The translations under genes were made by a program, and so were the position numbers. Below, piece by piece: positions 39,026 to 57,881 of a stretch of DNA of 64,000 nt. The DNA is from Streptomyces umbrinus (lineage in GTDB: Bacteria; Actinomycetota; Actinomycetes; Streptomycetales; Streptomycetaceae), in NCBI RefSeq assembly GCF_030817415.1, contig NZ_JAUSZI010000002.1:1054001-1118000 (forward strand). The letters run 5' to 3'. Positions within the stretch are counted from its first letter, which is position 1; the number at the start of each line of letters is the position of its first letter. The notes under the pieces were generated by a model. It did no database searches. It was not told the DNA's origin and was given only the letters and a program-made list of their open reading frames with translations.

Positions 39026-39033
39026 TGAACTCC

Positions 39034-39068: not shown

Positions 39069-39072
39069 CGCC

Positions 39073-39994: not shown

Positions 39995-40855
39995 GTGCAC
40001 CTCATGCGTATCGGCGCCGTCGGCGCCGAGAAGCCCGTCGCCCGTATCGACGACGAGACATACGTCGATCTCTCCGATGTCGTCACGGACTTCGACGAGG
40101 CGTTCTTCGGCTCGGGCGGCATCGACCGCATACGCCCCGTCGTGGCCGAGCGGGTGGCCGCGGGTCAGATGGCGCGGTTCGCCGGGGAACGTGTCGGCGC
40201 CCCGATCGCGCGCCCGCACCAGATCCTGTGCATCGGCCTCAACTACCGCGACCACGCGACCGAGACCGGCATGCCTGTTCCCGACGAGCCGATCCTCTTC
40301 ACCAAGTCGCCCAACACGCTCGTCGGCCCGAACGACGACGTGCGTATCCCGCGCGGCTCCACCAAGACCGACTGGGAGGTGGAGCTCGGCATCGTGATCG
40401 GCCGCCGCACCAGCTATCTGGACTCGGTGGACGAGGCACGCGACGCCATCGCCGGTTACGTGGTCGTCAACGACGTCAGCGAGCGGGCCTTCCAGTTGGA
40501 ACGCGGCGGGCAATGGGCCAAGGGCAAGTCCGCCGAGACCTTCAACCCCGCCGGTCCCTGGCTGGCCACCCCGGACGAGATCGGCGACGTACTGGCGCTG
40601 GACATGTGGCTGGACGTCAACGGGGTGCGCCGACAGAGCGGCAGCACCAAGACGATGGTCTTCGACCCGTACTTCATCGTGCACTACCTGAGTCAGTTCC
40701 TCGTCCTGGAACCCGGTGACCTCATCAACACGGGCACCCCGCCCGGCGTCGGCATGGGGTTCAGCCCGCCGGTGTGGCTGCAGCCCGGTGATGTCATGGA
40801 GCTGGGCATCAAGGACCTCGGCGCCCAGCGCCAGCACGTGCTCGGGCCGCGGTGA
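39995..40855 (+). CDS. Fumarylacetoacetate hydrolase-family enzyme
   Basis: 286 residues from GTG 39995 (GGAGA at 39982-39986); ATG 40004 is the other choice. The metal site is clear: HxxE in HATETGM region, then DWEVELGIVIG (E-x-E) and VNDVSERAFQ with Asp; GTPPGVGMGFSPPVWLQPGDVMELGI is the family's C-terminal signature. Members cleave C-C bonds of diketo acids or dehydrate keto-deoxy sugars. With the IlvD dehydratase and SDR it fits a 2,4-diketo-3-deoxy-sugar-acid hydrolase producing pyruvate and an aldonic/hydroxy acid. Stop overlaps the start of the dehydrogenase gene (GTGA). Confidence 0.9.
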   Translation: MHLMRIGAVGAEKPVARIDDETYVDLSDVVTDFDEAFFGSGGIDRIRPVVAERVAAGQMARFAGERVGAPIARPHQILCIGLNYRDHATETGMPVPDEPILFTKSPNTLVGPNDDVRIPRGSTKTDWEVELGIVIGRRTSYLDSVDEARDAIAGYVVVNDVSERAFQLERGGQWAKGKSAETFNPAGPWLATPDEIGDVLALDMWLDVNGVRRQSGSTKTMVFDPYFIVHYLSQFLVLEPGDLINTGTPPGVGMGFSPPVWLQPGDVMELGIKDLGAQRQHVLGPR

Positions 40856-41884
40856 GCTCCCGCCTGATGCGTGCCTTCGTACTGACCGGTCCCGGGAAGT
40901 ACGCGGTGCAGGAGGTTCCGGTGCCGGTGGCCGTTCCCGGCGAGGTCGTCGTCGATGTCGAGCGGGTCGGCGTGTGCGGCACCGACGTCGAATTCTTCAC
41001 GCGGTGCGATGGCCTACCTCCACCAGGGCCACTCCACCTACCCGACGCGGATCGGCCACGAGTGGGCCGGTCGCGTGGCCGCGGTCGGCGACGGCGTCGA
41101 TCCCGCCTGGATCGGCAGGCGGGTCATGGGCGACACCATGCTCGGCTGCGGCCTCTGCCGGCGTTGCCGCCGGGGTCACCAGCATGTGTGCGAGAAGCGG
41201 CAGGAGGTCGGCATACGCGGGCAGCGGCCGGGCGCTCTGGCGGAGCAACTCGCGGTACCGGCCTCCTCGTTGCACGCTCTGCCCGACTCCGTCGGTCCCG
41301 TACTCGGCGCGCTGGTGGAGCCGGGCGGCAACGCCCTGCGCGCCGCACAGGCCGCCGAACTACGGTCCGGCGACCGGGCGTTGGTGCTGGGCCCGGGGAC
41401 CATAGGGCTGTTGGTCGCGATGTTCGCCCGCGCCGCCGGTGCGGAGGTGCATCTGATGGGCCGCACCGAAGAGTCGCTCGCCTTCGCCCGCACGCTGGAC
41501 TTCGCACACGTATGGACGGAGGGCTCCGTCCCGGGCCTGCCGTTCGACGCCGTGATCGACGCCTCCAACGCCGTCCATCTGCCCGGCCGGGCGCTGGAGT
41601 CGGTCGAACCGGCCGGCCGCGTCGTGTACGTGGGACTGGCCGGTGAGCCGAGCCGGATCGACACCCGCACCCTCGCCCTCAAGGACGTCACGGCGGTCGG
41701 CATCCTGTCCGCCTCACCCGGCCTCGACGCCACGATCCGCGCCTACGCCGACGGATCCGTCGACCCCGGCCCTCTCGTCGCCGCGACCGTCGGCCTGGAT
41801 CAGGTCGGTGACGTCCTGGCCGGCATCCGCCCGCCCCACGCCGGGCCTGGCCCCAAGATCCATGTCGATCCTCGACTGACCTGA
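40852..41884 (+). pseudogene. Zinc-dependent medium-chain dehydrogenase, frameshifted
   Basis: GTG 40852 overlaps the hydrolase stop. The first frame gives MRAFVLTGPGKYAVQEVPVP..VERVGVCGTDVEFFTR, and a +1 frame continues MAYLHQGHSTYPTRIGHEWAGRVAAVG... to 41884. The join lies at about 41001-41010 (GCGGTGCGAT); dropping one base would restore FFTRAMAYLHQG. Catalytic zinc ligands (Cys in VCGTD, His in IGHEW) and the structural zinc Cys set in CGLCRRCRRGHQHVCEK are all kept, as is GPGTIGLL for NAD. It would oxidise the sugar or polyol at the start of the pathway. Recent mutation or sequencing error. Confidence 0.85.
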
Positions 41885-42015: not shown

Positions 42016-43236
42016 TCAGGCCGCGAGTAGTTTAGACAGGCGCTCGGCTGGGGTTTCCCAGCCGAGCGTTTTGCGTGGGCGGCTGTTGAGTTCGGCGGCG
42101 GCTGCGTCCAGGTGCTTGCGGGTGTGGACGGACAGGTCGGTGCCCTTGGGGAAGTACTGCCGCAGCAGGCCGTTGGTGTTCTCGTTCGAGCCGCGCTGCC
42201 AGGGACTGGCCGGGTTGCAGAAGTAGACCGGGATGTCGGTGGCGATGGTGAATGCCTGGTGGGCGGCCATCTCCGAGCCCTGGTCCCAGGTGAGGGAACG
42301 CCGCAGGTGGGGCGGCAGGGTTTGGACGGTTTCCACGAGAGCGTCGCGGGTGCTGGCCGCGCTGTGGTCGATGGGCAGGTGGACCAGCATCACGTAACGG
42401 GTGGTGCGTTCGACGAGTGTGCCGATCGCCGATTTGTGGTCCTTGCCGATGATGAGGTCGCCTTCCCAGTGTCCTGGGACGGCCCGGTCGTCGGCTTCTG
42501 CCGGGCGGTCGCTGACCATGACCATGTTCGGGATCGATCGGGGCTGGCGCTTGTATGCCTGCCGGTGAGGACGTCGGCGGGCGCGTCCGCTGCGCAGGGC
42601 GCGGGCCAGTTCCCGGCGCAGTTCGCCCCGTCCCTGGACGTAGAGGGCCTGGTAGATCGTCTCGTGGGTCACGTGCATCTCCGGCCGGCTGGGGAACCGT
42701 ATGCGCAGAGCGTGGCAGATCTGTTCCGGGCTCCACCGCAGGGTCAGGTGGTCCTGGACGAAGTCCCGCAGTTCGGCGCTCTGGCCGATCTTCCCCGGCT
42801 TGGGGCGGGGCCGGCGGGCGTCGGCGCGGGCCTGGGCGGCGTGGGGCCGGTACTGGCCGTTGGTGGGATGCCGGTTGCGGCGGATCTCCCTGCTGATGGT
42901 CGAGGGGCTGCGGCCCAGCTCGGCGGCGATCGCGCGGATGGTGGTTCTCTCGCGGAGCCGGTCGGCTATGTGGATGCGGTCAGCCTCGCGCAGGTAGCGG
43001 GAAGGGCCAGAAGGAGGCGGCGCCTCCTGGTAGATCGGAGGCGCCGCCTTCTTCCGGCCGACGTTCGCGTGTGAACCGTTACGCCATCTTTTGCCGGTCC
43101 GCAGGTTGATGCCGACGATTCGGCAGGCTTCCTGACTGCTCACGCCTTGCTGCATGAGCTGGAAGTATGCGGCCCGTTCCCGGTCCAGCTTCTTCGGCCC
43201 CTGCCGCTGGCGTTCCTTGCGTACTTCGAAGTCCAT
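42016..43236 (-). CDS. IS30-family transposase
   Basis: 406 residues, full length. N-terminal helix-turn-helix units (QQGVSSQEACRIVGINLRTGKRW and RTTIRAIAAELGRSPSTISREIRRN, the IS30 signature), then the DDE core: D260 in GHWEGDLIIGKDHKSAIGTLVERTTRY, D318 in WDQGSEMA, E352 in PWQRGSNENTNGLLRQYFPKGTDL. All three catalytic residues are intact, so the element may still move. ATG 43236. Cut-and-paste or circle-forming transposition as known for IS30. Confidence 0.95.
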   Translation of the reverse strand: MDFEVRKERQRQGPKKLDRERAAYFQLMQQGVSSQEACRIVGINLRTGKRWRNGSHANVGRKKAAPPIYQEAPPPSGPSRYLREADRIHIADRLRERTTIRAIAAELGRSPSTISREIRRNRHPTNGQYRPHAAQARADARRPRPKPGKIGQSAELRDFVQDHLTLRWSPEQICHALRIRFPSRPEMHVTHETIYQALYVQGRGELRRELARALRSGRARRRPHRQAYKRQPRSIPNMVMVSDRPAEADDRAVPGHWEGDLIIGKDHKSAIGTLVERTTRYVMLVHLPIDHSAASTRDALVETVQTLPPHLRRSLTWDQGSEMAAHQAFTIATDIPVYFCNPASPWQRGSNENTNGLLRQYFPKGTDLSVHTRKHLDAAAAELNSRPRKTLGWETPAERLSKLLAA

Positions 43237-43268: not shown

Positions 43269-43617
43269 ACTAGAACTCAAGCGGTGGGAGGGGGCACTTC
43301 ACCGGCGTGGGAGTGCGCGCTCGTCGGGGGGCTGCTTCGGGCCGTGGGGTGGCGTCGTCGGGGCGTGAACACGCCCCTTTCGCGCGGTTCCCGAGTGGCG
43401 GTCGAGGCTGTTTGGCTTTGACATGCAGCGCGTGCTGCCAAGTTGCCCGGACCATAACGAGGGTGCCGTCCGGGCGTTCCCCCCACCCCGGCCTCCCTGA
43501 CAGCGGGTCAGGTCCGAGCCGCCCGCACCCTTCCTGAGTCCCGAAGCCCCCGACACCACCCTGTTCAGCCATGTTCGTGCGCGTCCCCTCACGTCCGCTC
43601 ATGCCTTGGGAGGAAAT

Positions 43618-45045
43618 GTGTCTGCCCCGGAAAGCTCGCCCGAAAGCGCCGCCGGGCCCACCGACGAACAACGCTTCACCAGCCTCAGCACCCAGGCGGC
43701 GCGTCAGCTCGCCACCACCACCAAGTCCGAACCGCAGATGCAGGCCATCACCTCGCGATGGCTGCTCAAGATGCTGCCGTGGGTGGACATCAAGGGCGGC
43801 ACCTACCGGGTGAACCGGCGACTCCAGCTCCGCGTCGGCCGGGGCCGGGTGCAGTTCGAGCAGAACGGCGCGGACGACATCAAGGTCATCCCCCAGACAC
43901 TGACCGAACTGCCCGCCCTGCGCGGCTACTCCGACACCGCGGCCCTCAAGGAGATCTCCTCCCGCTTCCGGGTGCGGGAGGTACGCGCCGGCCAGATCAT
44001 CTTCGACGCCGGACAGCCCGTCACGGAGGCCTACCTCGTCGTCCACGGCCGGTTCACCCGCTACACCATCGGAAAGTACGGCGAGGAGGAGGTCACCGGC
44101 GTCATCACGGACGGCGACGGAATGGGGGACGAGGCGATCGGCCAGGCCGACCCCCTGTGGCTCAACTCGGTGCGGGCCGAGACCACGGGCGTGGTCCTCG
44201 CCCTCAACTGGGACACCCTGAGGCAGTTCGTCGACCGCACCCCGTCCCTCGCCGCCCAGTTGGACGCGTTCGCACAGCAGCAGAGCAAACCGATGAACCG
44301 CAAGGGCGAGGCCGATGTCCCCGTACAGGCCGGCCATGTGGGCGAGCCGGTCCTCGCCGGCGGCTTCGTCGACTACGACCTCGTCCCGCGCGAGTACGAG
44401 CTGTCCCTCACCCAGACCGTGCTGCGCGTCCACACCAGGGTCGCCGACCTCTACAACCATCCGATGGACCAGACCGAGCAGCAACTGCGCCTGACCGTCG
44501 AGGAGATCCGCGAGCGCCAGGAGTGGGAGCTGGTCAACAACCGCGAGTTCGGTCTGCTGCACAACGTCGACCACGGCCAGCGCGTCAGCACGTACTCGGG
44601 TGCGCCCACGCCCGACGACCTCGACGAGCTGCTGTCGATGCGCCGCAAGACCCGGCTGTTCCTGGCCCATCCGAAGGCGATCTCCGCCTTCTTCCGGCAC
44701 TGCAACCGGCGCGGCCTGGTGCCCGGAACGGTGAACGTCGAGGGCCACGAGGTGCCCTCCTGGCGGGGTGTTCCGTTCTTTCCCTGCGGCAAGATCCCGA
44801 TCAGTCCGCAGCACACCAGCAGCATCATCGCGTTGCGCACCGGAGAGAAGGACCAGGGGGTCGTCGGGCTCCACCAGACCGGCATCCCCGAGGAGTTCGA
44901 GCCCGGTCTGAACGTGCGGTTCATGGGCATCGACACCACCGCGATCATGAGCTACCTCGTCACCGCCTACTACTCGATGGCCATCCTCGTGCCCGACGCC
45001 GCGGGGATCCTGGAGAACGTCCAGGTCGGGCGGACCGCGGAATGA
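43618..45045 (+). CDS. eshA: Family 2B encapsulin shell protein with cNMP-binding domain (EshA)
   Basis: 475 residues. The start GTG 43618 follows GGGAGG closely; TTG 43606 is in frame upstream. The chain is an HK97-type shell protein interrupted by a cyclic-nucleotide-binding-like domain (about 108-220: [33 protein letters not shown], then GDEAIGQ and SVRAET as the phosphate cassette). After it the capsid fold resumes ([28 protein letters not shown]..., [36 protein letters not shown]). In Streptomyces this protein (EshA) is linked to 2-MIB genes, and family 2B shells enclose terpene synthases. Stop overlaps the next start (ATGA). It is a compartment protein, not a Crp-type regulator: no helix-turn-helix. 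Confidence 0.92.
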
Positions 45046-46094
45046 GCACACCGTCGGCCTCCGGTTCGCGGTCGCGGCTGCCCGGTCCGCCGAGCCTCGC
45101 CCGCCCGCCCCGGCGGGGCGGGGCCATCCCCGGGCTGCGGTACCGGCCCGTCGCCCCCGCCGACCCGGCCAAGGCCGCCGAGGTCGACCGCAGGCTGGAG
45201 GAGTGGGCGCACGGGCTGGACCTGTTCCCGGCGGCATGGAAGGGGGACTTCTCCGGCTTCCAGTTCGGCCGGGCCGTCGTCCTGCAGCACCCCGGCGCGG
45301 CCGACCTCGAACGCCTCACCTCGGCAGGCAAGTTGCTCCTCGCCGAGAACCTCGTCGACAACCTCTACTGCGAAGAGGACGAGGGCAAGGGCGGCTCACC
45401 ACGCGGGCTGGGCGGCCGGCTGATCATGGCCCAGGCGGCACTCGATCCCTACCACGGCACTCCCGAGCTGGAGGAGGAGTGGCGCCGCGGCGTACGGGCC
45501 GACGGGCCGCTTCGCTCGTACCACTTCGCGCTGCGGGACTACGCCGTCTTCGCCACTCCCAGTCAGACCGACAGGTTCGTGCACGACATCGCCCGGCTGC
45601 ATCTGGGCTACCTCGGCGAGGCCGCCTGGTCGGAGATCCGGTACGTGCCGCAGGTGTGGGAGTACCTGGTGATGCGGCAGTTCAACAACTTCCGGCCCTG
45701 TCTGTCGATCGTCGACGCCGTGGACGGATACGAACTGCCCGAGGCCGTGTACGCCCGGCCGGAGATCCAGCGGATCACCGCCCTCGCGTGCAACGCCACC
45801 ACGATCGTCAACGACCTGTACTCCTTCACCAAGGAGCTGGCCAGCGATCCGACACATCGGAATCTGCCCCAGGTCATCGCCGCGAACGAGAAGCGCGGTC
45901 TGAAGGCCGCGTATCTCAAGGCGGTCGAGATCCACAACAGGATCATGGCGGCGTTCAAGGAGGAGTCGGCACTCCTGTCCGCCACCTCACCCCTGGTCGA
46001 GCGCTATGCACAGGGACTGTCCGACTGGGTGGCCGGCAACCACGAGTGGCACGCCACCAACACCCACCGCTACCACTTGCCCAACTACTGGTGA
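45042..46094 (+). CDS. 2-methylisoborneol synthase (type I terpene cyclase)
   Basis: 350 residues. It cyclises 2-methyl-GPP to 2-methylisoborneol. A disordered Pro/Arg/Gly-rich N-terminus (1-32, [20 protein letters not shown]) precedes the alpha-helical cyclase and is the probable encapsulin-loading segment. Metal motif 1 is D106-N-L-Y-C-E-E-D113, with Asn where many relatives have a second Asp. Motif 2, N257-D-L-Y-S261-F-T-K-E265, is complete. The end HRYHLPNYW carries the Arg-Tyr pair that senses diphosphate. Translationally coupled to eshA, 50 bases before the methyltransferase gene. Confidence 0.93.
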
Positions 46095-47768: not shown

Positions 47769-48767
47769 ATGGCCCTCAAGCTCGGCGCCTACACCGCCTG
47801 TCTGCACGACCGCACCCTCACCGAAGCGCTTGACATCCTCAAGGAGAACGGGCTGACCTCGGTGGAGGTCAGCACCGGTGGCTTCATCCCCTCCCCGCAC
47901 TGCCCTGTCGACCTGCTGCTGTCCTCGGCCAAGGCGCGCGAGGAGTACCTGGCGACCTTCGCCGAGCGTGGGCTGGAACTGACCGGGCTCAACTGCAACG
48001 GCAACCCCCTCAACCCGCTCCCGGGCGTCGGGCCCAAGCACGCCGACGACCTGCGCCGCACCATCCGGCTGGCGGGTCTGCTGGGTGTGAAGCACGTCGT
48101 CACGATGTCCGGCACCCCGGGCTCCGACCCCGACGCCAAGTACCCGTCCTGGGTCGTGAACCCGTGGGACGGCGTCTACATGGACGTCCTGGACTACCAG
48201 TGGGACGTGGCCGTCGAGTTCTGGAAGGAGATCGACGCGCTGGCCCGGGAGAACGACGTCCGGGTCGCCATCGAGATGCACCGGCACAACGTGGTGTTCT
48301 CCCCCGTCACCCTCAAGCGGCTGGTCGACGCGGGCGGCCTGACGAACGTCGGCGCGGAGATGGACCCCTCCCACCTGATGTGGCAGGGCATGGACATCGT
48401 CGCCTCCATCAAGTGGCTGGGCCCGCTGGTGTTCCACGCCGCCGCGAAGGACGCGACGCTCTGTGCCGGCGCCGACATCCGTGGCGTACTGGACACGTCG
48501 TTCACCCGCGTGCCCGCCGACGCGCCCGGCAAGGTGCCCACCGGCTACGGCTTCTGGTGCAACGCCTGGCCGGAGAACCCGGCGTGGAAGTTCGTCGCCG
48601 TCGGCAACGGCAACGACGTCCCCTACTGGACCGAGTTCCTGCGCGCCCTCGCGGAGATCGACCCGGACATGGCCGTGAACATCGAGCACGAGGACGCGGC
48701 CTACTCCCAGACCGAGGGACTCGCGCTGGCGGCCAAGAACCTGCACAGCGCAGCCGCCGCGCTCTGA
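47769..48767 (+). CDS. Sugar phosphate isomerase/epimerase (xylose isomerase-like TIM barrel)
   Basis: 332 residues; GGAGAAGGAAGAG precedes ATG 47769. The AP_endonuc_2 barrel is clear: LKLGAYTACLHDRTLTEALDILKENGLTSVEVSTGG, GLNCNGNPLNP, LGVKHVVTMSG, VAIEMHRHNVVFSP (metal Glu), VGAEMDPSHLMWQGMD (metal Asp/His), VFHAAAKDA and NIEHEDA. Members act in inositol or sugar catabolism with Gfo/Idh dehydrogenases; the upstream partner is a broken one here. It may now be without its pathway. Substrate unknown. Confidence 0.9.
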   Translation: MALKLGAYTACLHDRTLTEALDILKENGLTSVEVSTGGFIPSPHCPVDLLLSSAKAREEYLATFAERGLELTGLNCNGNPLNPLPGVGPKHADDLRRTIRLAGLLGVKHVVTMSGTPGSDPDAKYPSWVVNPWDGVYMDVLDYQWDVAVEFWKEIDALARENDVRVAIEMHRHNVVFSPVTLKRLVDAGGLTNVGAEMDPSHLMWQGMDIVASIKWLGPLVFHAAAKDATLCAGADIRGVLDTSFTRVPADAPGKVPTGYGFWCNAWPENPAWKFVAVGNGNDVPYWTEFLRALAEIDPDMAVNIEHEDAAYSQTEGLALAAKNLHSAAAAL

Positions 48768-48801: not shown

Positions 48802-49821
48802 TCACCTGGCCCCGCGCCCACCCACCGGGCGCGGGGCACTGTCCTGTCCCGGGGTGGCCGAGCCGCCCGGGATCGGTGTGCGTGCCGGGCCTCCGGCGAG
48901 TACGTCCTGGATGTTGTCCACGGCGAGATCCACCATCGCGGCCCGCGTGGCCTCGGTGGCGGAACCGATGTGCGGAAGCGTGACCGCGTGGGGCTCGGCG
49001 ACCAGCGGGGAGAGTTCCCTCCCCATGGGTTCGCGCTCGAAGACGTCGAGACCCGCCGAGTGGATGACGCCGTCGCGCAGGGCCCGCAGCAGGGCGTCCT
49101 CGTCCACGACACCACCGCGCGAGGTGCTGACGAGGGTGGCGGTGGGCTTCATGGCCGCCAGTTTGGCGGCGCCGATGAGGTGTCGCGTCTGCGGGGTGAG
49201 CGGGACGTGCAGCGAGACGACGTCGGCCTCGGCGAGCAGCGTTGGCAGGTCCACCGATGTGGAGAGGGCGTCGTCGGGCGCGTACGGGTCGTGGTGCAGG
49301 ACCCGCATCCCGAAGCCCTGGGACCGGCGCGCCACGGCTCGGCCGATCTGGCCGTAGCCGATCAGGCCGAGCGTGGCGCCGTGCACGTCCAGGCCCAGGT
49401 AGTCGTCCATCCGGAACAGGCCCCATTGGCCGGCGGCCAGTGAGTCGCGGGCGGCGCCGAGTCGCCTGCGGGCCATGAGGATGAGCGAGACGGTGAGGTC
49501 GGCGGTGGTCTCGGCGAGAACGCCGGGGGTGTGGGTGACCACGACGCCGCGTTCGGCCGCCGCCTCCCGGTCGACCGCGTCGTAGCCCATGCTCGCCAGC
49601 GCGACCAGCTGCAACGTGGGCCCCGCCGCGTCCAGCAGTGCGGCGTCCACCCGGTCGTTGCCCAGGGCCAGGATCGCGCTCGCGCCCTTCGCCAGTTCCG
49701 CAAGATCCCGCGGTTCGGGCTTGCTCGTCCCCGGCCATGCCACGACCTCGGCGTGGGACTCCAGGCGGGCTATGCCGCCGCCGGGGAGGGCGGCCCGGGT
49801 GGTGAGCACACGCTGCTTCAT
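48802..49821 (-). CDS. D-isomer-specific 2-hydroxyacid dehydrogenase (glyoxylate reductase-like)
   Basis: 339 residues, ATG 49821 with GGGAG. The NAD loop is LGLIGYGQIGRAVARR, the catalytic Arg is in STSRGGVVDEDAL, the Glu in DVFEREP and the His in LPHIGSATEATR. The family reduces glyoxylate, hydroxypyruvate or other 2-oxo acids. It is convergent with the isomerase gene and lies on the same strand as the LysR gene upstream (140-base gap holding a dyad). Neighbouring aldolase and transaminase genes make a 2-oxo acid or glyoxylate product plausible, but this is inference. Confidence 0.92.
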   Translation of the reverse strand: MKQRVLTTRAALPGGGIARLESHAEVVAWPGTSKPEPRDLAELAKGASAILALGNDRVDAALLDAAGPTLQLVALASMGYDAVDREAAAERGVVVTHTPGVLAETTADLTVSLILMARRRLGAARDSLAAGQWGLFRMDDYLGLDVHGATLGLIGYGQIGRAVARRSQGFGMRVLHHDPYAPDDALSTSVDLPTLLAEADVVSLHVPLTPQTRHLIGAAKLAAMKPTATLVSTSRGGVVDEDALLRALRDGVIHSAGLDVFEREPMGRELSPLVAEPHAVTLPHIGSATEATRAAMVDLAVDNIQDVLAGGPARTPIPGGSATPGQDSAPRPVGGRGAR

Positions 49822-49847
49822 CGGTTTCTCCCGTGCTTGATCCGCGT

Positions 49848-49864
49848 TTCACGAAATCAGTGAA
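49848..49864. promoter_or_regulatory. Small dyad upstream of the hydroxyacid dehydrogenase
   Basis: TTCAC-GAAATCA-GTGAA, a 5-bp inverted repeat with 7-base spacer, 27 bases before the start codon, in an AT-richer stretch that also has tandem GATTC/GATTCG units. Possible operator. Confidence 0.35.
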
Positions 49865-49961
49865 GTCGATTTGGTTCGATTCGATTCGTGAAGACGCTAG
49901 TCAGCACATTCCGGAGCAACAAATAGCCAATTTGTGTGACGTCATCGAAAATCGGGATGCA

Positions 49962-50912
49962 TTAATCCGACGCCTTCGAGGACTCCATCGACGCGTCCCC
50001 GAAGGCGGCGTCCTCATCGAATTCCGTGATCAATTCATGGAAGAGGTCGTGCACGGCGTGCGCGGGTTCCGACAGCGGCTGATGGTCGGAGGTACACAGC
50101 GACAGTTTCACCGTGATCGCCGGATTGACGATCCGGCGTACCACCAGATTCCGTACGTCGAGGGTCGCGCGCGCCGCGGACCAGGGCAGGACCGTCGCCC
50201 CGACGTCGGCGCCCACCGCGCTGATCAGGGTCAGGACCGACTCGATCTCGCCGACCACCCTGGGTTCGAGCGAGGCGTGCTGGAACGCGGCGTCGACGAC
50301 CTGTCTGATGGTGTGGATGCGGCTGGGCAGCAGCAGCGGGACGCCGGCCAGCTCTTCGAGGGAGACGTCGCCGTCCCCGGAGGGCACCGACCCGCCCGGC
50401 GCGGCGATCAGGAACAGGTCCTCGGTGCGCAGCGGCTCGAACTGCACGCCCCGCAGCGGCCCGGCCCCGTAGATGAACGCCATGTCCATCCGGCCGGTCA
50501 TGATCGCCTCGCTGATCACACCGCCGAAGTTCTCGTTGATGTGCAGCAGGATGTCGGGGTAGCGCTCGCGCACGCTCCTGAGCAGGGGCAGCGCGAGCGC
50601 CGCGCCCATGCTGTAGGGGGCGAGGCCCACCGAGACGCTGCCCGCGGGCGCCCGCCCGGAGATGTCGACCGCCGCGTGGGCGAGGTCGATCTGGCGCAGG
50701 ATGAGCTGCGCGTGCCGGTACAGCGCGCGGCCCGCCTCGGTCGGGGCCACACCTCGTTTGCTGCGGATCAGCAGCTGCTGCTTGAACTGGGCCTCCAGCG
50801 CCGAGAGCTGCTGGCTGAGCGCGGGCTGCGCGATGTGCAGGATGTCCGCCGCGCGCGTGATGCTCCCGGCATCCACGATCTTTACGAACGAGTAGAGACG
50901 CCTGGTGTCCAT
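49962..50912 (-). CDS. LysR-family regulator, probable controller of the pxp operon
   Basis: 316 residues: N-terminal helix-turn-helix RLYSFVKIVDAGSITRAADILHIAQPALSQQLSALEAQFKQQLLIRSKRGVAPTEAGRALY, the subtype resembling nitrogen-assimilation LysR proteins (Nac/Cbl branch), then a substrate-binding domain of about 200 residues with VSVGLAPYSMGAALALPLL and LPSRIHTIRQVVDAAF. ATG 50912. Divergent from pxpA across 309 bases, the classical LysR arrangement; effector likely a 5-oxoproline-related compound. Confidence 0.93.
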   Translation of the reverse strand: MDTRRLYSFVKIVDAGSITRAADILHIAQPALSQQLSALEAQFKQQLLIRSKRGVAPTEAGRALYRHAQLILRQIDLAHAAVDISGRAPAGSVSVGLAPYSMGAALALPLLRSVRERYPDILLHINENFGGVISEAIMTGRMDMAFIYGAGPLRGVQFEPLRTEDLFLIAAPGGSVPSGDGDVSLEELAGVPLLLPSRIHTIRQVVDAAFQHASLEPRVVGEIESVLTLISAVGADVGATVLPWSAARATLDVRNLVVRRIVNPAITVKLSLCTSDHQPLSEPAHAVHDLFHELITEFDEDAAFGDASMESSKASD

Positions 50913-51221
50913 GTGCGGCCTTCCAGCGGGGGCGGAGCCTCATGGTAGGCGCGGGTCCGCCGCACGGCCCTTGGCGCGTGTGCTCCACGTCATATCCAAC
51001 GGTGATTACGTCACGCACAACATGTATTTGCCGCCTCCTCGCGTTCGGACTACGTTCACCGAAACGCGATTCCGAGGTCGCCCGACCGAACGGCTCGCGT
51101 ATCTCGCAGGAAATGTATCGGCCCCGTTAATTCCTCTTTTCGGGCGGCGTCCAGACCCGCCCGCAGAGCACTGGAACGACAATGCGGCGCCCCCGTTTTC
51201 TTCTTCTGTCCGGAGGATGTC
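50913..51221. promoter_or_regulatory. LysR/pxpA intergenic promoter region
   Basis: 309 bases without a gene. It is AT-richer than its surroundings (ATATCCAACGGTGATTACG near 50992, ACATGTATTTGCCG near 51020), as expected for divergent promoters. I could not fix a unique LysR T-N11-A site. GGAGGATG just before 51222 is the pxpA ribosome site. Confidence 0.5.
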
Positions 51222-52004
51222 ATGACGCACAGGGTTGATCTCGTGGCCGACCTCGGCGAGGGGTTCGGCGCCTACACGATGGGTGACGACGAGGCTCTCC
51301 TCGATGTGCTGACATCGGCGAACATCGCCTGCGGGTTCCACGCGGGCGATCCGCGGATCATGGACGCCACGGTCCGTCACTGTGTGCGGCGCGGCGTGGC
51401 CGTGGGCGCGCATCCCAGCTTTCCCGATCTCGTCGGGTTCGGCCGCCGCGCGATGGACGTGACACCGGACGAGGTCCGCACCGACGTGCTCTATCAGGTC
51501 GGCGCGCTCCAGGCGTTCGCCGTGTCGAACGGCACCGGGCTTCGCCATGTGGCGCCGCACGGCCGGCTGGGCAACCTGGTCGCGACCCGGCCCGACTACG
51601 CGGCGGCCGTCGCGGACGCGGTCGCCTCCCTCGACCCGTCGTTGATCGTCCTGGCCCAGGACGGCGAGCTCGCCGACGCCGCACGCGCCCGCGGCCTGCG
51701 GGTGGGCATCGTCGGGATCGCCGACCGGGCCTATCGCGACGACGGCACGCTGGTGCCGCGGAGCGAGCCAGGGGCGGTCATCCACGAGGAGAAGGAGATC
51801 GCCGAGCGGACGATCCGCATGGTGACCGAGGGCGTCATACGCAGCGTCGGCGGGCGTGACATCCCCGTCGACTGCGACACCGTGCTGCTGCACGGAGACA
51901 CCCCGGGCGCGATCTCCCTGGCCCACCGTGTGCGCCAGGACCTGCTCGCCGCAGACGTCGAGATCACGGCCCTGGCCGACGTGCTCGACGGAAAGGCCGC
52001 CTGA
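51222..52004 (+). CDS. pxpA: 5-oxoprolinase subunit A (LamB/YcsF family)
   Basis: 260 residues. VDLVADLGEGFGAYTMGDDEALLDVLTSANIACGFHAGDP is the LamB/YcsF signature. AVGAHPSFPDLVGFGRR, HVAPHGRLGN and VLLHGDTPGAISLAHRVR follow. In the PxpABC complex this subunit helps open the lactam ring of 5-oxoproline with ATP, giving glutamate. Where homologues have KPHGALYN, this one reads APHGRLGN, so the conserved Lys and Tyr of that loop are changed; this may mean a different substrate. First gene of the operon, one base before pxpB. Confidence 0.92.
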   Translation: MTHRVDLVADLGEGFGAYTMGDDEALLDVLTSANIACGFHAGDPRIMDATVRHCVRRGVAVGAHPSFPDLVGFGRRAMDVTPDEVRTDVLYQVGALQAFAVSNGTGLRHVAPHGRLGNLVATRPDYAAAVADAVASLDPSLIVLAQDGELADAARARGLRVGIVGIADRAYRDDGTLVPRSEPGAVIHEEKEIAERTIRMVTEGVIRSVGGRDIPVDCDTVLLHGDTPGAISLAHRVRQDLLAADVEITALADVLDGKAA

Positions 52005-52005
52005 C

Positions 52006-52761
52006 ATGGACAGCAGCACGGGCGTCGTGGACGGCGCCGACACCGCGCGCGGCAGTGTCCTGATCGTGGACTGCGGCGATTCGGGCGTCGTGGCCAAGGC
52101 CGTCGGCATGGACGCCGAGCGCGCCTGGCAGACCGTGCACGGCCTCGCCGATGCCTTCGACGCGGTGCGGCTGGCCGGGGTGCACGGCATCGTGCCCACC
52201 TACGACTCGCTGCTCGTCGAGTTCGACTGCGCCGACACCGATCACGACACGGTACGGCGCGTGCTGCGGCACGAGGCTGACCGGCTCGGCGAGGGCCCGG
52301 TGACGCCGCCCGCGGCACGGTGTTTCGTCGTCCCGGTGGTCTACGGCGGCGAGTTCGGACCCGATCTTCCCGTCGTCGCCGAGCAGTTGGGGCTGAGTGA
52401 GCGCGAGGTGGTGGAGCTGCACTCCGCCGCGGACCTCACGGTCCGCTGTCTCGGCGCACCGGCCGGCGCACCGATGATGGACGGCCCTGCGTTCCCCCGG
52501 CCCGTACCCAGACTGTCCTCGCCCCGCACACGGGTGCTGCCCGGCTCGGTCGCGGTGGCCGGGCGTCAGGCCGTGATCTGCCCGATGCCGTCGCCCGGCG
52601 GCTGGCCGCTGCTCGGCCGCACTCCCCTGCGCGTCCTGGAGGACCTCGACGCCGACCCGCTGACCGCGTACCGGCCCGGCGACACCTTCCGCTTCGTACC
52701 CATCACGCCCGAGCGGTGGGACGACCACGCTGGCCGCTCCCTGGCGGTGTCGCATGGCTGA
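52006..52761 (+). CDS. pxpB: 5-oxoprolinase subunit B (KipI family)
   Basis: 251 residues. An N-terminal domain (LIVDCGDSGVVAKAVGMDAERAWQTVHGLADAFDAVRLAGVHGIVPTYDSLLVEFD) and a cyclophilin-like domain (VPVVYGGEFGPDLPVVAEQLGLSEREVVELHSAADLTVRCLG...) are the KipI/PxpB pattern; GGWPLLGRTPL is the usual late motif. With PxpC it forms the ATP-dependent part. In Bacillus the KipI/KipA pair also affects a sporulation kinase, a side role not implied here. It overlaps pxpC by eight bases. Confidence 0.92.
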   Translation: MDSSTGVVDGADTARGSVLIVDCGDSGVVAKAVGMDAERAWQTVHGLADAFDAVRLAGVHGIVPTYDSLLVEFDCADTDHDTVRRVLRHEADRLGEGPVTPPAARCFVVPVVYGGEFGPDLPVVAEQLGLSEREVVELHSAADLTVRCLGAPAGAPMMDGPAFPRPVPRLSSPRTRVLPGSVAVAGRQAVICPMPSPGGWPLLGRTPLRVLEDLDADPLTAYRPGDTFRFVPITPERWDDHAGRSLAVSHG

Positions 52762-53773
52762 CACCCTGAACGTCCTCCGGGCCGGCATGGCGACCGTGCA
52801 GGATCTGGGCCGGTTCGGGCGCTCCCGCTACGGCCTGCCGGTGAACGGCGCGCTCGACCAGCACTCCGCCCGCGTCGCCAACGTGCTCTGCGGCAACGAC
52901 GAGGGCGCGCCGCTGCTGGAGATCACCGCCCTGGACTTCAGCTGCACGCCGTCGACCGACGTACTCGTCGCGGTGACCGGCGCGCCGGCCGACCTGACCG
53001 TCGACGGCGTCGTACGGCCGCAGTGGGAACCCCTCTCCGTGCGGTCCGGCGAGACGATCCGTATCAGCGGCATCCGGAGCGGCATCCGGGTCTACCTCGC
53101 CGTGCTGGGTTCGTTCAACACCCCTTATCTGCAAGGCAGTTGCGCCCCCGACACGATCCTCGGCTTCGGCCACTCACTGCGCGACGGGGACGAGCTCGGC
53201 CTCCAGCGGCACTGCCCGCCCGTCGACCACCCGGAGTACCGCATCCCGCTGTTCCGGCTGCGCGCACCCGTGCCCCGCTTCCCCATGACCCTCCTCCCGT
53301 CGCCGTGGACCATCGACGTGACCGACGGCCCCGACCTCGCCGAGTTCGGTGACACGGCGGACCGGCTGTTCGGGTCGGAGTTCACCGTGAGCCCGCAGAG
53401 CAACCACATCGGACTGCGGATGGCCGGTGACGTGCCCCGGCGCGTGGCGACCGGCGAGGTGCTCTCGCGTGGTGTCCCCGTGGGAGCCGTCGAGGTCCCC
53501 GCGGGCGACGAGCTGCTCGTCCTGCACCGCGGCCGCGGCGTCACCGCCGGCTATCCCGTACTGGCCGTCGTGACCGCGACCGGACTGTCCGCGCTCGGCC
53601 AGGTCGGACCGGGCCAGACCGTCCGTTTCCGGCACCGGACCGTCGCCGAGGCGGTGGCCGCCCACCGTTCCCAGCGAAGCGCCGTCCAGGCCCTCCAGAA
53701 CCGGGTGCGCACCGTCTTCGACGCCCTGCGCATCCCCTCAAGCCCCGCACGCACCGTCCCCGTCTCCCCTTAA
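52754..53773 (+). CDS. pxpC: 5-oxoprolinase subunit C (KipA family)
   Basis: 339 residues: LNVLRAGMATVQDLGRFGRSRYGLPVNGALDQHSARVANVLCGN is the KipA signature, then FGHSLRDGDELGL and SPQSNHIGLRMAGDV and a C-terminal VLAVVTATGLSALGQVGPGQTVRF. Often misnamed biotin-dependent carboxyltransferase; no biotin domain is present. Translationally coupled to pxpB. Completes the PxpABC set, 24 bases before the transporter gene. Confidence 0.92.
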   Translation: MADTLNVLRAGMATVQDLGRFGRSRYGLPVNGALDQHSARVANVLCGNDEGAPLLEITALDFSCTPSTDVLVAVTGAPADLTVDGVVRPQWEPLSVRSGETIRISGIRSGIRVYLAVLGSFNTPYLQGSCAPDTILGFGHSLRDGDELGLQRHCPPVDHPEYRIPLFRLRAPVPRFPMTLLPSPWTIDVTDGPDLAEFGDTADRLFGSEFTVSPQSNHIGLRMAGDVPRRVATGEVLSRGVPVGAVEVPAGDELLVLHRGRGVTAGYPVLAVVTATGLSALGQVGPGQTVRFRHRTVAEAVAAHRSQRSAVQALQNRVRTVFDALRIPSSPARTVPVSP

Positions 53774-53797
53774 CCTGCCTGCAGACAGGAGAACGTC

Positions 53798-55114
53798 ATG
53801 AGTACCGTGGCCGCTCAGCCGGTGCCGAACACCGTCGATCCGAAAACCGCGCGAAAAGTCACCCTCGCCGGGTGCGTGGGCATCTTCGCCGAGCTCTACG
53901 ACAACGGAATCTTCGGCTTCATGGCGGGCACCCTGGCCGTCGTGTTCTTCCCGAACGCGGACAACGCGACCGCCGTCCAGTTCGTCTTCCTCGGCTACGC
54001 CGTCTCGTTCTTCTTCCGCCCGCTCGGCGGGATCATCTGCGGCCACCTCGGCGACCGCATCGGCCGCCAGCGGATGCTCGTCTTCGTCATCATGCTGATC
54101 AGCGTCGCGACCGCGGCGATCGGCATTCTGCCGACGTACGCGAGCATCGGCATCGCGGCCCCCGCCCTGCTGATCCTGCTGCGTGTCGCGCAGGGCTTCT
54201 CGGTCGGCGGCGAGGCCTCCGGCGCGATGAGCTTCCTCGCCGAGCACGCTCCCGAGGGCAAGCGCGGCCTCTACACGAGTTACGCCCAGATCGCCTCGTT
54301 CCTCTCCCTGCTCACCGGCACGCTGATCGCCGCCGCCATGACCAGCGGCCTCGGCCAGGACCGTATGGAGTCGTGGGGCTGGCGCATCCCGTTCCTGCTC
54401 GCCGTGCCGCTCGGCATCACCGGCATCTACATCCGCAAGCGGATCAGCGACACCCCCAACTTCAACCGCCTCAAGGAAGAGGGCGGGCTGTCCAAGAACC
54501 CGCTCAAGGAGGCCTTCTCCTCCCCCGAGCACCGCCGGGCGATGCTGCTCGCCCTGTTCATCCCCCTCATGAACGGCTCCGGCTACTACGTCCTGTTCAG
54601 CTACATGCCGACCTTCATGAACACCGAGCTCAACTTCAGCAAGGTGCAGGGCCTGCTCGTCACCGCGACCAGCCTGGTGGCCATCTCGATCGCCATCCCG
54701 TACATGGGCAGCCTCTCCGACCGCATCGGCCGCAAGAAGGTCCTCGCGGGAGCCGCTGTCGCCATGGCCGTCGCCGGCGTTCCCTGTTACCTGCTCATCG
54801 GCACCGGAAGTGTCCCGCTCGCCATCCTGGGCGCCTGCATCATGGCGGTCATCTTCGCCGGTCACACCGGCGTCATCCACGTCCTGCTCGTCGAGCTCTT
54901 CCCCACCCGGGTGCGCTACTCCGCCTACGGGCTCGGCTACAACGTCTCGGCCGCCCTCTTCGGCGGTACCGCTCCCTTGCTGATGACCTACCTCATCGAC
55001 AAGACGGGCAACGTCAACATGCCCGCCTTCTACGCGGTCGTCACCGCACTCGGCACGCTCATCGCCGTGTCCCGGGTCAAGGACAGGGCACACCTGCCGC
55101 TGCGCGACGCGTAG
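53798..55114 (+). CDS. MHS-type MFS transporter (organic acid/amino acid symporter)
   Basis: 438 residues, about 12 helices. FAELYDNGIFGFMAGTLAVVFFP, FRPLGGIICGHLGDRIGRQRMLVFVIM, RVAQGFSVGGEASGAMSFLAEHAPEGKRGLYTSY and GSLSDRIGRKKVL are MHS-family (ProP, KgtP, citrate) motifs; proton symport is usual. Being in the pxp operon, it very likely imports the substrate, a 5-oxoproline-like or dicarboxylate compound. ATG 53798 with AGGAGAAC upstream. Confidence 0.92.
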   Translation: MSTVAAQPVPNTVDPKTARKVTLAGCVGIFAELYDNGIFGFMAGTLAVVFFPNADNATAVQFVFLGYAVSFFFRPLGGIICGHLGDRIGRQRMLVFVIMLISVATAAIGILPTYASIGIAAPALLILLRVAQGFSVGGEASGAMSFLAEHAPEGKRGLYTSYAQIASFLSLLTGTLIAAAMTSGLGQDRMESWGWRIPFLLAVPLGITGIYIRKRISDTPNFNRLKEEGGLSKNPLKEAFSSPEHRRAMLLALFIPLMNGSGYYVLFSYMPTFMNTELNFSKVQGLLVTATSLVAISIAIPYMGSLSDRIGRKKVLAGAAVAMAVAGVPCYLLIGTGSVPLAILGACIMAVIFAGHTGVIHVLLVELFPTRVRYSAYGLGYNVSAALFGGTAPLLMTYLIDKTGNVNMPAFYAVVTALGTLIAVSRVKDRAHLPLRDA

Positions 55115-55190
55115 CCCGGCCGAACGCCCTCACCCCCCGCCCTCTTTTCACCCCCCACCTCTCTCCAGAGACCTCTAGGAGCGCATCCAC

Positions 55191-55934
55191 ATGCCCTTTT
55201 CCGACTACAACACCGCCCTGGTGACAGGAGCCTCCACCGGAATCGGAGCCGTGGTCGTCGAACGGCTGGCCAAGCAGGGGCTCGAAGTCCACGCCGTCGC
55301 CCGTAACGCCGAGCGGCTCGACGACCTCGCCCGGCGTACGGGCTGCACCCCGCACGCCGTCGACATCACCGACACGGCCGCCCTCACCGAGACGCTGCGG
55401 GGCATCGAGGTCGATGTCCTGGTCAACAACGCCGGGGTCTCCCGCACCGGGAACATCCTCTCCGCCGACGAGTTCGCCGTGGACGAGCAGATCGCGGTCA
55501 ACCTCCAGGCCGTACTGCACCTCGTGCGCCTGATCATGCCCGGGATGGTCGAGCGCGACCTCGGGCACATCGTCAACATCAGCTCGATCGCCGGCGTCTA
55601 CAACTTCGGCGGGAACACCGTCTACCACGCCACCAAGGCGGCCGTGCACACCCTCTCCCGGCAGCTGCGCGTCGACGGCTACGGCCGCCGGATCCGGGTG
55701 ACCGAGATCTGCCCCGGCCGGGTGGAGACGGAGATCTTCGGCCGGCTCCTCGGCGACATGGAGGAGGCCCAGAAGCAGTTCTACGACGGCTACGAGTCGC
55801 TCAAGCCGGAGGACATCGCGGACGCCATCGAGTTCGCCGTCGGCTCGCCGCGCCATGTGAACATCGGCCACATCGAGATCCTGCCGACGTTCCAGGTGCC
55901 AGGTGGCCTCAACTTCGAGAGGCGGACCGACTGA
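55191..55934 (+). CDS. SDR-family dehydrogenase of the pxp operon (YdfG-like)
   Basis: 247 residues: TGASTGIG at 13-20, ARNAERLDDL giving an NADP-type Arg, NNAG near 84, Ser in NISSIAG, Tyr-Lys in YHATKAAV and EICPGRVETEIFGR. The YdfG branch oxidises 3-hydroxy acids such as allothreonine, 3-hydroxyisobutyrate or L-serine, releasing keto acids. Here it probably acts on a hydroxy group of the substrate. Ribosome site AGGAGC upstream of ATG 55191; one base from the aminotransferase start. Confidence 0.9.
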   Translation: MPFSDYNTALVTGASTGIGAVVVERLAKQGLEVHAVARNAERLDDLARRTGCTPHAVDITDTAALTETLRGIEVDVLVNNAGVSRTGNILSADEFAVDEQIAVNLQAVLHLVRLIMPGMVERDLGHIVNISSIAGVYNFGGNTVYHATKAAVHTLSRQLRVDGYGRRIRVTEICPGRVETEIFGRLLGDMEEAQKQFYDGYESLKPEDIADAIEFAVGSPRHVNIGHIEILPTFQVPGGLNFERRTD

Positions 55935-55935
55935 C

Positions 55936-57168
55936 ATGGCGACCTCCACAACCGCCTTGACCGCCCTGCGTGTTCAGCGGATCAAGCCCTCGCCGAGCAC
56001 CGCGGCGGCCCAGCGCGTCCGCGAGCTGAAGGCACAGGGACTCGCCATCCTGGACCTGACGGTCGGCGAGCCCGACTTCGACACCCCCGAGCATGTGAAG
56101 GCCGCCGCGGTCGAGGCGATCCGGCGGGGCGACACGAAGTACACCCCGGTCAACGGCACGCCCCAACTGCGGGCCGCCATCGCCCAGAAGCTGGAGCAGC
56201 GGCACGGGCTGCGCTACTCCGCCGACCGGATCGCCGTCGGCGGAGGGGCGAAGCAGGTCATCTTCCTCGCGCTGATGGCCACGCTGGACACGGGCGACGA
56301 GGTGATCGTCCCCGCTCCGTACTGGGTGTCGTATCCGGACATGGTCCTTGCCAACGACGGCACACCGGTCGTCGTGCCCTGCCCTGAGTCGGAGGGCTTC
56401 AAGCTGACTCCGCGGCGGCTGGAGTCGGCGATCACCGACCGGACACGCTGGGTGATCCTCAACGCCCCGGGCAACCCCACGGGAGCCGCGTACACGGCGG
56501 ACGAACTCCGCGCGCTGGCCGACGTGTTGCTGGCCCACCCGCACGTCCAGGTGCTGACCGACGAGATCTACGACGAGATCTGGTTCGAGCCGGGTCAGGT
56601 CCCCAGCCTCGCCGCCGTCGAACCACGCCTGACCGACCGGGTGTTCCTCACCAACGGCGTCTCCAAGGCCTACGCGATGACCGGTTGGCGGATCGGCTAC
56701 GGCGTCGGTTCCGCCTCGCTGGTGGCGGCCGTCAACACCCTGCAGTCGCAGATCTCGTCCTGCCCGTCGTCGATCAGCCAGGCCGCCGCGACCGCCGCCC
56801 TCACCGGCGACCAGGACTTCGTACGCGACTGTGTGGCCGTCTACCGCGGCCGCCGCGACGTGACGGTGAAGCTGGTCGACGACATCCCCGATCTGTCCTG
56901 CACGCCACCGAGCGGCGGCTTCTACGCCTTCGTGAACTGCACGGCCGTACTGGGGAAGCGGACTCCCGCGGGTGAAGTGATCGGCTCGGACGAGGACTTC
57001 GCCCGCCATCTGCTGGAGTCGCAGCAGGTGGCGGTCATCCACGGTGCCGCGTACGGATCACCCGGCTACTTCCGGATCTCCTTCGCGACCTCCACCGACG
57101 TCCTCACCGAGGCCTGCGAGCGGATCGGCCGCGCCTGCGCGGACCTGTCCCCTGCCGACCCCTCCTGA
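55936..57168 (+). CDS. Class I aminotransferase (aspartate-aminotransferase family)
   Basis: 410 residues. PLP Lys in GVSKAYAMTGWRIGYGVGS, Asn-Pro-Thr-Gly in APGNPTGAAY, Asp-Tyr pair in LTDEIYDEIWF and a C-terminal Arg in GYFRISFATS for the alpha-carboxylate. IRRGDTKYTPVNGTPQLRAAIA is typical of subgroup I-gamma (Asp/prephenate type). In this operon it would turn a glutamate analogue from PxpABC into its 2-oxo acid. One base after the SDR stop; followed by the aldolase 38 bases later. Confidence 0.92.
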   Translation: MATSTTALTALRVQRIKPSPSTAAAQRVRELKAQGLAILDLTVGEPDFDTPEHVKAAAVEAIRRGDTKYTPVNGTPQLRAAIAQKLEQRHGLRYSADRIAVGGGAKQVIFLALMATLDTGDEVIVPAPYWVSYPDMVLANDGTPVVVPCPESEGFKLTPRRLESAITDRTRWVILNAPGNPTGAAYTADELRALADVLLAHPHVQVLTDEIYDEIWFEPGQVPSLAAVEPRLTDRVFLTNGVSKAYAMTGWRIGYGVGSASLVAAVNTLQSQISSCPSSISQAAATAALTGDQDFVRDCVAVYRGRRDVTVKLVDDIPDLSCTPPSGGFYAFVNCTAVLGKRTPAGEVIGSDEDFARHLLESQQVAVIHGAAYGSPGYFRISFATSTDVLTEACERIGRACADLSPADPS

Positions 57169-57206
57169 AGACCTGCCCGCCCCTCCTGAAAACCCGAAGG
57201 AGCGTC

Positions 57207-57881
57207 ATGATCCGCGTCAACACGAAGTTCGACCGGCCCGACCCGGACCTGGTCGAGCAGCTGAGCAAGTACTCAGCCGCCACGATCCACGAGGCACAGG
57301 ACCGCCTGGGTGCCCTGGACTCGACCATCAAGCCGGTCGACCCCGCGATGTCGCTGTGCGGCCCCGCGTTCACCGTGCGCTGCGCTCCCCGCGACAACGT
57401 CATGCTGCAGGTCGCCATCGCCCACGCCCGGCCCGGTGACGTCATCGTGGTCTCGGCCGGCGAGTACGCCGAGGCGGGCTCCTTCGGCGACGTACTGGCC
57501 AACGCGTGTGTCGCCAAGGGTCTGGGCGGCCTCGTCACCGACACCGGTGTCCGGGACACGCGGGAACTCCGCGAACTCGGCTTCCCCGTCTTCTCGTACA
57601 GCGTCTGTATGAAGGGCACAGTCAAGGAGACCGTGGGGCCGATGGCCGAGCCGGTGCTGATCGGCGGCGAGATCGTCCGTCCCGGCGACGTCGTGCGCGC
57701 CGACGCCGACGGCGTGGTGATCGTACGGCGCGACGACGTGGCGGACGTCGTGCGCAAGTCCCAGGAACGGGTCGAGGCCGAGGACGCCTACATCGCGGCC
57801 TACCGCTCCGGCAAGAGCGTCATCGAGGTCAGCAACCTCGCCGCCGTACTCGAAGCGAAGGGGCTCGTCATCGACGCGTAG
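57207..57881 (+). CDS. HMG/CHA-type class II pyruvate aldolase (RraA-like fold)
   Basis: 224 residues; GAAGGAG precedes ATG 57207. The active-site pattern is complete: GEYAEAGSFGDVLANACVAKGLGGLVTDTGVRDTREL, that is G-E/D-x-x-x-x-G-x-x-G-D, then the R-D that bind pyruvate and metal. Relatives split 4-hydroxy-4-methyl-2-oxoglutarate or 4-carboxy-4-hydroxy-2-oxoadipate to pyruvate and also decarboxylate oxaloacetate. Last gene of the pxp operon. Regulator-of-RNase-E function is unlikely given the catalytic motif and context. A 16-base palindrome CCGTGCCCGGGCACGG at 57954-57969 may end the operon. Confidence 0.9.
   Translation: MIRVNTKFDRPDPDLVEQLSKYSAATIHEAQDRLGALDSTIKPVDPAMSLCGPAFTVRCAPRDNVMLQVAIAHARPGDVIVVSAGEYAEAGSFGDVLANACVAKGLGGLVTDTGVRDTRELRELGFPVFSYSVCMKGTVKETVGPMAEPVLIGGEIVRPGDVVRADADGVVIVRRDDVADVVRKSQERVEAEDAYIAAYRSGKSVIEVSNLAAVLEAKGLVIDA

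Follow-up and report, generated by a model that had tools for sequence, protein, structure and literature searches.

A 64,000-nucleotide stretch of the Streptomyces umbrinus genome (contig NZ_JAUSZI010000002.1, positions 1,054,001 to 1,118,000; hereafter the window, from a host genome of 12.4 Mb) contains an operon in which genes for the 5-oxoprolinase subunits PxpA, PxpB and PxpC are joined to transporter, dehydrogenase, aminotransferase and aldolase genes. The + strand carries, in order, pxpA (51222-52004), pxpB (52006-52761), pxpC (52754-53773), an MHS-family metabolite:H+ symporter gene (MHS; 53798-55114), a short-chain dehydrogenase/reductase gene related to YdfG 3-hydroxy acid dehydrogenases (SDR; 55191-55934), a class I aminotransferase gene of the aspartate/glutamate type (AT; 55936-57168) and a gene for an RraA-family class II pyruvate aldolase of the 4-hydroxy-4-methyl-2-oxoglutarate/4-carboxy-4-hydroxy-2-oxoadipate type (HMG/CHA; 57207-57881). 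A LysR regulator gene (49962-50912, - strand) diverges from the operon and is adjoined by a D-2-hydroxyacid dehydrogenase gene (DHDH; 48802-49821, - strand). A sequence-only reading of the window had listed these genes, their strands and the divergent regulator, and gene calls and family matches place them as claimed; its intergenic distances within the operon are reproduced on recomputation (1, -8, 24, 76, 1 and 38). That reading also set a 2-hydroxyacid dehydrogenase beside the operon, which is correct as to adjacency and is refined here in that DHDH lies on the side and strand of LysR, outside the + strand operon. The region it delimited holds the core genes and omits a wider module, present in part of the relatives, of gluconokinase (GntK), an IdnD-like zinc alcohol dehydrogenase (ADH) and an IdnO-like second short-chain dehydrogenase (SDR2).

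The three adjacent subunit genes score above the gathering cut-offs of PF03746 (303 bits), PF02682 (156.4 bits) and PF02626 (210.5 bits). Matching fails at the equivalog level: PxpA falls under three equivalog cut-offs, PxpB under that of TIGR00370 (115.9 against 145.55) and PxpC far under that of NF045499 (162.7 against 500). The window PxpA exceeds two subfamily cut-offs (NF003814 and NF003816). The aminotransferase passes the PRK06107 aspartate transaminase model (659.2, cut-off 617) and is closest in the PDB to aspartate aminotransferase A (6f77, 9.7e-132), and the regulator passes the NCBIfam NAC model (354.6, cut-off 309). The symporter stays under the cut-offs of TIGR00883 (354.1 bits) and the ProP model (328.7), as does the SDR under that of the NCBIfam YdfG model (154 bits, cut-off 411; top PDB match 3asu). 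DHDH matches PF02826 and PF00389; its top NCBIfam models, glyoxylate reductase and GhrB, are under their cut-offs, and its PDB relatives are headed by glyoxylate reductases, with the probable 2-ketogluconate reductase 9m0t in fifth place. The divergent promoter region (50913-51221) holds blocks conserved in an alignment of 21 upstream regions (the window and 20 chosen loci), namely CTCAT-GTA, GTCATA, GAT-ACG-CA and TATT, with GGAGGA ahead of pxpA.

The altered PxpA loop pointed out in the sequence-only reading is real, the window protein having APHGRLGN where canonical PxpA has the KPHGALYN type. Comparison of 64 variant with 54 KPHG-type sequences revealed 24 clade-specific positions, conserved in each set and different between them, and 77 positions that are conserved and identical. 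Substitutions in the variant include N8V, K111A, A115R, Y117G, E164V, F166I and C222L. The loop position is Ala in 63 of the 64 variant sequences and Lys in 54 of 54 canonical ones, a set grouped by the KPHG motif itself and drawn mostly from the window's family. Both sets include repeat copies (the window gene, that of genome G103 and the window's canonical gene), and sequences covering fewer than 225 residues of the query span, or belonging to neither motif class, were dropped. Loci and genomes are denoted here by L and G handles, with G000 for the window genome and locus L108 belonging to G103. All of the best 120 of 7438 PxpA matches below 1e-50 are without the loop Lys, and 117 of these 120 read APHGRLGN. 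Loss of two large side chains, in K111A and Y117G, would fit a bulkier ligand.

Conservation of the set was followed in 71 PxpA loci from a one-genome-per-species collection, retrieved with peptide patterns of the window's own PxpA and thus favouring close relatives; presence was called at 45% identity, or 38% for DHDH and GntK. The closest named locus among them is that of Streptomyces phaeochromogenes, with a PxpA 99% identical. The [A/T/C]PHG[R/K]LG loop occurs in 61 of the 71 loci (exactly APHGRLGN in 58), and these variant loci carry PxpB (59), PxpC (58), LysR (54), MHS (53), SDR, AT and the aldolase (52 each), with a LacI-type gene in three. AT and aldolase occur together at 52 of the 61, spanning 11 genus-level groups: Streptomyces (28), Arthrobacter (11), Rhodococcus (3), Nonomuraea and Pseudarthrobacter (2 each), and Amycolatopsis, Leifsonia, Rothia, Microbacterium, Nocardia and an unclassified actinobacterium (one each). 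The set is thus not specific to the strain, in answer to the co-occurrence search across actinobacteria that the sequence-only reading had proposed. Nine variant loci do not have both genes, and seven of these are stretches shorter than 12 kb; L046 (13.7 kb) stops after the transporter gene, and L058 (15.7 kb) has matches of PxpABC type only. No set member reaches threshold at the 10 non-variant loci, where PxpB and PxpC are present at lower identity; sub-threshold matches there are AT in L062 and L064 (34%), DHDH in L064 (33%) and SDR2 in L065 (38%). The Bacillus locus L064 was considered as an independent parallel on account of its AT and DHDH matches and dropped, as it has no aldolase match; by eye, the open reading frame after its PxpA resembles NRAMP-type 5-oxoproline transporters.

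The association of these genes is not due to chance, because AT and aldolase accompany 52 of 61 variant PxpA genes and none of 18 canonical ones. The control loci, 19.9-kb stretches around canonical PxpA chosen by hand and mostly from genomes in few contigs, have no match at E <= 1e-12 to AT, aldolase, core SDR, DHDH, ADH or GntK (0/18); one has an SDR2 match of 33%, and seven have an MHS match of 27-30%. PxpA at E <= 1e-40 is found in 139 of 150 genomes of the window's family, the window's own counted, and the variant in two of the 150 (G000, and G103 at 87%), both of which also carry an ordinary PxpA. Among 396 genomes of the phylum, a first look at six candidates per genome finds the variant at E <= 1e-74 in one, the window's own. 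The variant operon therefore appears to be an accessory trait of scattered occurrence that accompanies a 5-oxoprolinase of housekeeping type. Arthrobacter sp. StoSoilB13 has the core set on a plasmid of 1.35 Mb (L127, 18.8 kb), with the PxpA, PxpC and LysR matches each in two pieces. On a Pseudonocardia alni plasmid (L126), a partial variant-like PxpA of 70% identity lies at 9001-9651; the stretch around it contains two transposase genes, and the remaining operon genes have no match there. In Nocardia amamiensis (L041, 3846-8661), a variant-type PxpA with the loop APHGKLGN comes after an MFS gene of the sugar-transporter type, a gene for a putative cyclase, PxpB and PxpC, a set that possibly serves another substrate.

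The aldolase passes the cut-off of the CHA aldolase model PRK09262 (220.6 against 179), stays below that of LigK/PcmE (189 against 304.5) and has as best solved relative 3NOJ, the HMG/CHA aldolase of Pseudomonas putida F1 (E 8.5e-51). The GD-x20-RD motif, to which Asp102 belongs, is present in all 52 loci possessing the gene. The window enzyme has equivalents of Asp102, Arg123, Asp124 and Glu199, and these do not vary among the 53 aligned aldolases; 10 of the 11 mapped active-site residues are identical in the window and invariant across the same 53 sequences. Passages of the study of the P. putida F1 enzyme (PMC5065237) describe Arg-123 as essential and the metal as held by Asp-124 and Glu-199. 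The same passages give substrates with R = CH3 in HMG and CH2COO- in CHA, cleavage of HMG into two pyruvates, and decarboxylation of oxaloacetate as well. Because the active-site residues match that enzyme, the best guess is that the aldolase would split a 4-hydroxy-2-oxo diacid into pyruvate and R-CO-COOH.

Around this core, four further genes recur at the 61 variant loci: DHDH at 45, the gluconate-5-dehydrogenase-like SDR2 at 27, the L-idonate-5-dehydrogenase-like ADH at 22 and GntK at 10. Counted over the 52 loci that have both AT and aldolase, one or more of these genes occur in 44, two or more in 27 and three or more in 20. All four occur at seven of the 61 loci, three from Rhodococcus, three from Arthrobacter and one from Nocardia (L033, L034, L035, L043, L051, L052 and L055). 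L108 also holds all four, and its GntK adjoins the aldolase gene. The ADH gene separates SDR from AT in Rhodococcus and Nocardia (N. carnea) and AT from the aldolase gene in Amycolatopsis, and is found downstream in Arthrobacter. A close DHDH homologue (at least 70%) is found in 22 of the 28 Streptomyces loci with AT and aldolase; identity of the window DHDH to representatives of other loci is about 29-39%, and six representatives share 29-40% pairwise, in some cases over part of their length, with a single pair at 62%. Such differing gene orders and mostly 29-40% alike DHDHs suggest that a needed function has been refilled. L-idonate 5-dehydrogenase is the best NCBIfam model for ADH and gluconate 5-dehydrogenase the second for SDR2, both under cut-off, and GntK exceeds a gluconokinase subfamily cut-off. 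In the window genome, GntK, GntP, SDR2 and ADH are clustered at a distant locus (C2:9.18 Mb, L106) without matches to the lactam-opening, AT or aldolase queries; other loci that lack sugar-acid genes may likewise encode them elsewhere, the window genome being the only one examined for this. In the three Rhodococcus loci (L033, L034 and L035, about 3200-5430), a gene for a fused E1-type 2-oxoacid dehydrogenase stands beside GntK, SDR2 and DHDH.

Gene content, synteny, PxpA divergence and the aldolase residues are observed features of these loci; the substrates, and the order and direction of all steps in what follows, are inferred from them. The favoured explanation, held tentatively and at somewhat less than an even chance, is that the operon serves to break down a 5-oxoproline whose C4 carries a hydroxyl together with a polyhydroxyalkyl (or acyl) substituent, with pyruvate and a 2-keto sugar acid as products. 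The MHS symporter, with an ABC system at some loci, is the proposed importer of the substituted 5-oxoproline, and the YdfG-like SDR the proposed reducer of a 3-oxo acid group. Variant PxpABC would then use ATP to open the lactam ring, yielding a 4-hydroxy-4-substituted glutamate, AT would convert this to a 4-hydroxy-2-oxo diacid, and the aldolase would release pyruvate and R-CO-COOH, the latter most likely 2-keto-L-gulonate. DHDH, proposed as a 2-ketoaldonate reductase, would reduce 2-keto-L-gulonate to L-idonate, ADH and SDR2 would carry L-idonate through 5-keto-D-gluconate to D-gluconate, and gluconokinase would yield 6-phosphogluconate; in the window genome, ADH, SDR2 and GntK would be supplied by the gnt/idn-type operon elsewhere. 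One substrate can explain both core and periphery, because an HMG/CHA-type aldolase leaves a 2-keto acid. As annotated, the four extra activities together match the succession 2-keto-L-gulonate, L-idonate, 5-keto-D-gluconate, D-gluconate and 6-phosphogluconate, whose dehydrogenase steps are established in fungi. Inversion at C5 is required for L-series sugar acids only.

A more specific proposal, fairly unlikely as it stands, is that the pathway degrades ascorbalamic acid, an ascorbate-alanine C-C adduct, or a close relative. Ascorbalamic acid is a plant compound from the literature of the 1970s, and its lactam form has a 4-hydroxy-4-acyl-5-oxoproline skeleton. Its formula equals that of ascorbate plus dehydroalanine. 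Here the SDR would reduce the ascorbate C3 ketone, PxpABC would open the lactam, AT and aldolase would release pyruvate and 2-keto-L-gulonate, and the idonate enzymes would invert C5 toward 6-phosphogluconate. The name is absent from the titles and abstracts of matching papers, some of which mention it in tables of putative annotations or in a review sentence; one such table gives it, with the formula C9H13NO8, as a putative annotation in a potato extract (PMC9229034).

The sequence-only reading had argued for a substrate other than plain 5-oxoproline and for lactam opening followed by transamination and cleavage by an HMG/CHA-type aldolase, and both parts gain support, the latter as a conserved catabolic set of inferred function. 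Degradation of plain 5-oxoproline, with the aldolase serving as oxaloacetate decarboxylase and the other genes in downstream glutamate and oxaloacetate handling, would agree with the family names and with the oxaloacetate activity in the passages of PMC5065237. It is very improbable and is set aside because a canonical copy coexists in both family genomes with the variant (G000 and G103) and PxpA is remodelled at 24 clade-specific positions; the transporter and regulator are also unlike those of pxpTABC/PxpR in Corynebacterium glutamicum. More weight belongs to the specific substrate of the sequence-only reading, a 4-hydroxy-5-oxoproline (or its 4-methyl form) that would pass through 4-hydroxyglutamate and 4-hydroxy-2-oxoglutarate to pyruvate and glyoxylate, or to two pyruvates, with DHDH reducing the glyoxylate. 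This unlikely scheme employs PxpABC, AT, aldolase and DHDH, accords with an HMG/CHA-type active site, with the published cleavage of HMG into two pyruvates (passages of PMC5065237) and with glyoxylate reductases as nearest solved relatives of DHDH, and is favoured by the 17 of 52 loci at which DHDH is the sole extra gene and the 8 of 52 with none of the four. However, it leaves the conserved SDR and the recurrent IdnD-like, IdnO-like and GntK genes unaccounted for, and K111A and Y117G would fit a bulkier ligand, so that the 4-hydroxy substrate is the less supported part of that reading.

Two pathways may instead share the locus, one for a lactam (PxpABC, AT, aldolase and SDR) and one for L-idonate and gluconate (DHDH, ADH, SDR2 and GntK), co-regulated as plant or soil matter offers both. 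The sugar-acid genes are indeed frequently on the opposite strand or missing, and the window genome has a free-standing gnt/idn-type operon. This arrangement is rather unlikely, as the core operon includes ADH in Rhodococcus, N. carnea and Amycolatopsis, GntK adjoins the aldolase in L108, and canonical PxpA loci are without such neighbours (0/18 for ADH, DHDH and GntK). Several observations also weigh against the favoured pathway toward a 2-keto sugar acid. GntK is found at just 10 of 61 variant loci, DHDH stands alone at the 17 loci counted above, the window included, and of the eight loci with none of the four genes, five (L006, L010, L012, L018 and L037, the others being L007, L021 and L053) extend over a full stretch of about 18.8 kb; L127, on the Arthrobacter plasmid, has the core without any of these genes. 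ADH and SDR2, both members of large families, are below their NCBIfam cut-offs, sorbitol dehydrogenases head the solved structures related to the Arthrobacter ADH, with L-idonate 5-dehydrogenase third, and DHDH, given its relatives, could serve glyoxylate. The aldolase has Gln in place of His75 in 53 of 53 sequences. A Lys, a Tyr, a Glu and an Asn that canonical PxpA conserves are gone from the variant, so lactamase activity may have been lost, and PxpB and PxpC also score under their equivalog cut-offs. Lactam opines such as agropinic acid, suggested by ABC systems near some loci, were dropped because neither an aldolase nor a transaminase would be required for them. Also dropped were sugar lactams and dihydroxy-6-oxopipecolate, for which no feeding genes were seen.

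The closest described system for the first step is 5-oxoproline use in C. glutamicum, for which PMC13274462 describes pxpTABC, a transporter of APC/NRAMP type and regulation by a GntR protein. The same three subunit families are encoded together in the order A-B-C, and ATP-dependent lactam opening is presumed. The window system differs in its PxpA loop and clade-specific positions, in its use of an MHS transporter and LysR, in sharing its operon with AT, SDR and aldolase, and in coexisting with a canonical copy. The aldolase resembles that of P. putida F1 in its motif and mapped residues, differing in the Gln for His75 and in genomic setting, a lactam operon as opposed to protocatechuate/gallate degradation (passages of PMC5065237). 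Fungal steps from 2-keto-L-gulonate through L-idonate and 5-keto-gluconate to gluconate are assigned to GluC/GluD, GluE and GluF (PMC4870679, PMC5306355 and PMC5814732). The reaction types are the same, and GluC is, like DHDH, a D-isomer specific 2-hydroxyacid dehydrogenase; the fungal route is fed by D-glucuronate, in contrast with the aldolase product proposed here. L106 resembles bacterial gnt/idn operons in the adjacency of GntK, GntP, a Gno/IdnO-like SDR and an IdnD-like ADH, and differs from the lactam operon in lacking the lactam-opening, AT and aldolase matches.

The sequence-only reading knew of no described pathway with this set. Among the open-literature papers listed under 5-oxoprolinase/PxpABC, idonate/2-keto-gulonate, 4-hydroxyglutamate lactams or ascorbate-dehydroalanine adducts, no title or abstract opening describes such a bacterial pathway, and no paper pairs 5-oxoprolinase with HMG aldolase. 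If the favoured explanation is true, '5-oxoprolinase' annotations in a set of soil actinobacteria would include a misannotated, distinct lactamase subfamily, and a new route would join amino acid and aldolase catabolism, perhaps together with that of sugar acids. The operon yields a defined, testable set of substrates and could throw light on how vitamin C adducts, or other branched plant 4-hydroxyglutamates, are recycled by bacteria of the soil. To our knowledge, no pathway for an adduct of ascorbate and an amino acid has been described before, so that the ascorbalamic acid version, if true, would be the first.

The surroundings of the operon contain further genes. A xylose-isomerase-like TIM-barrel protein without an NCBIfam match (47769-48767, + strand) ends 34 bases from DHDH; it was left out of the pathway because, among the 71 loci, it is common only to the near relative L003. 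A sugar-acid type cluster (36582-41884) with an SDR, an IlvD/Edd dehydratase, an FAA hydrolase and a zinc dehydrogenase is near the operon yet separate from it, and within it the open reading frame at 39073-39897 reads by eye like an IclR regulator. At 43606-45045 (+ strand) lies the gene for an SrpI-like shell protein of a type 2A encapsulin, which includes a cyclic-nucleotide-binding domain; a terpene synthase domain of family 2 comes next, the pair spanning 43606-46094 (+ strand) in an arrangement that resembles 2-methylisoborneol encapsulin operons. A transposase-like open reading frame with an rve integrase core (42016-43236, - strand) separates the sugar-acid cluster from the encapsulin gene.

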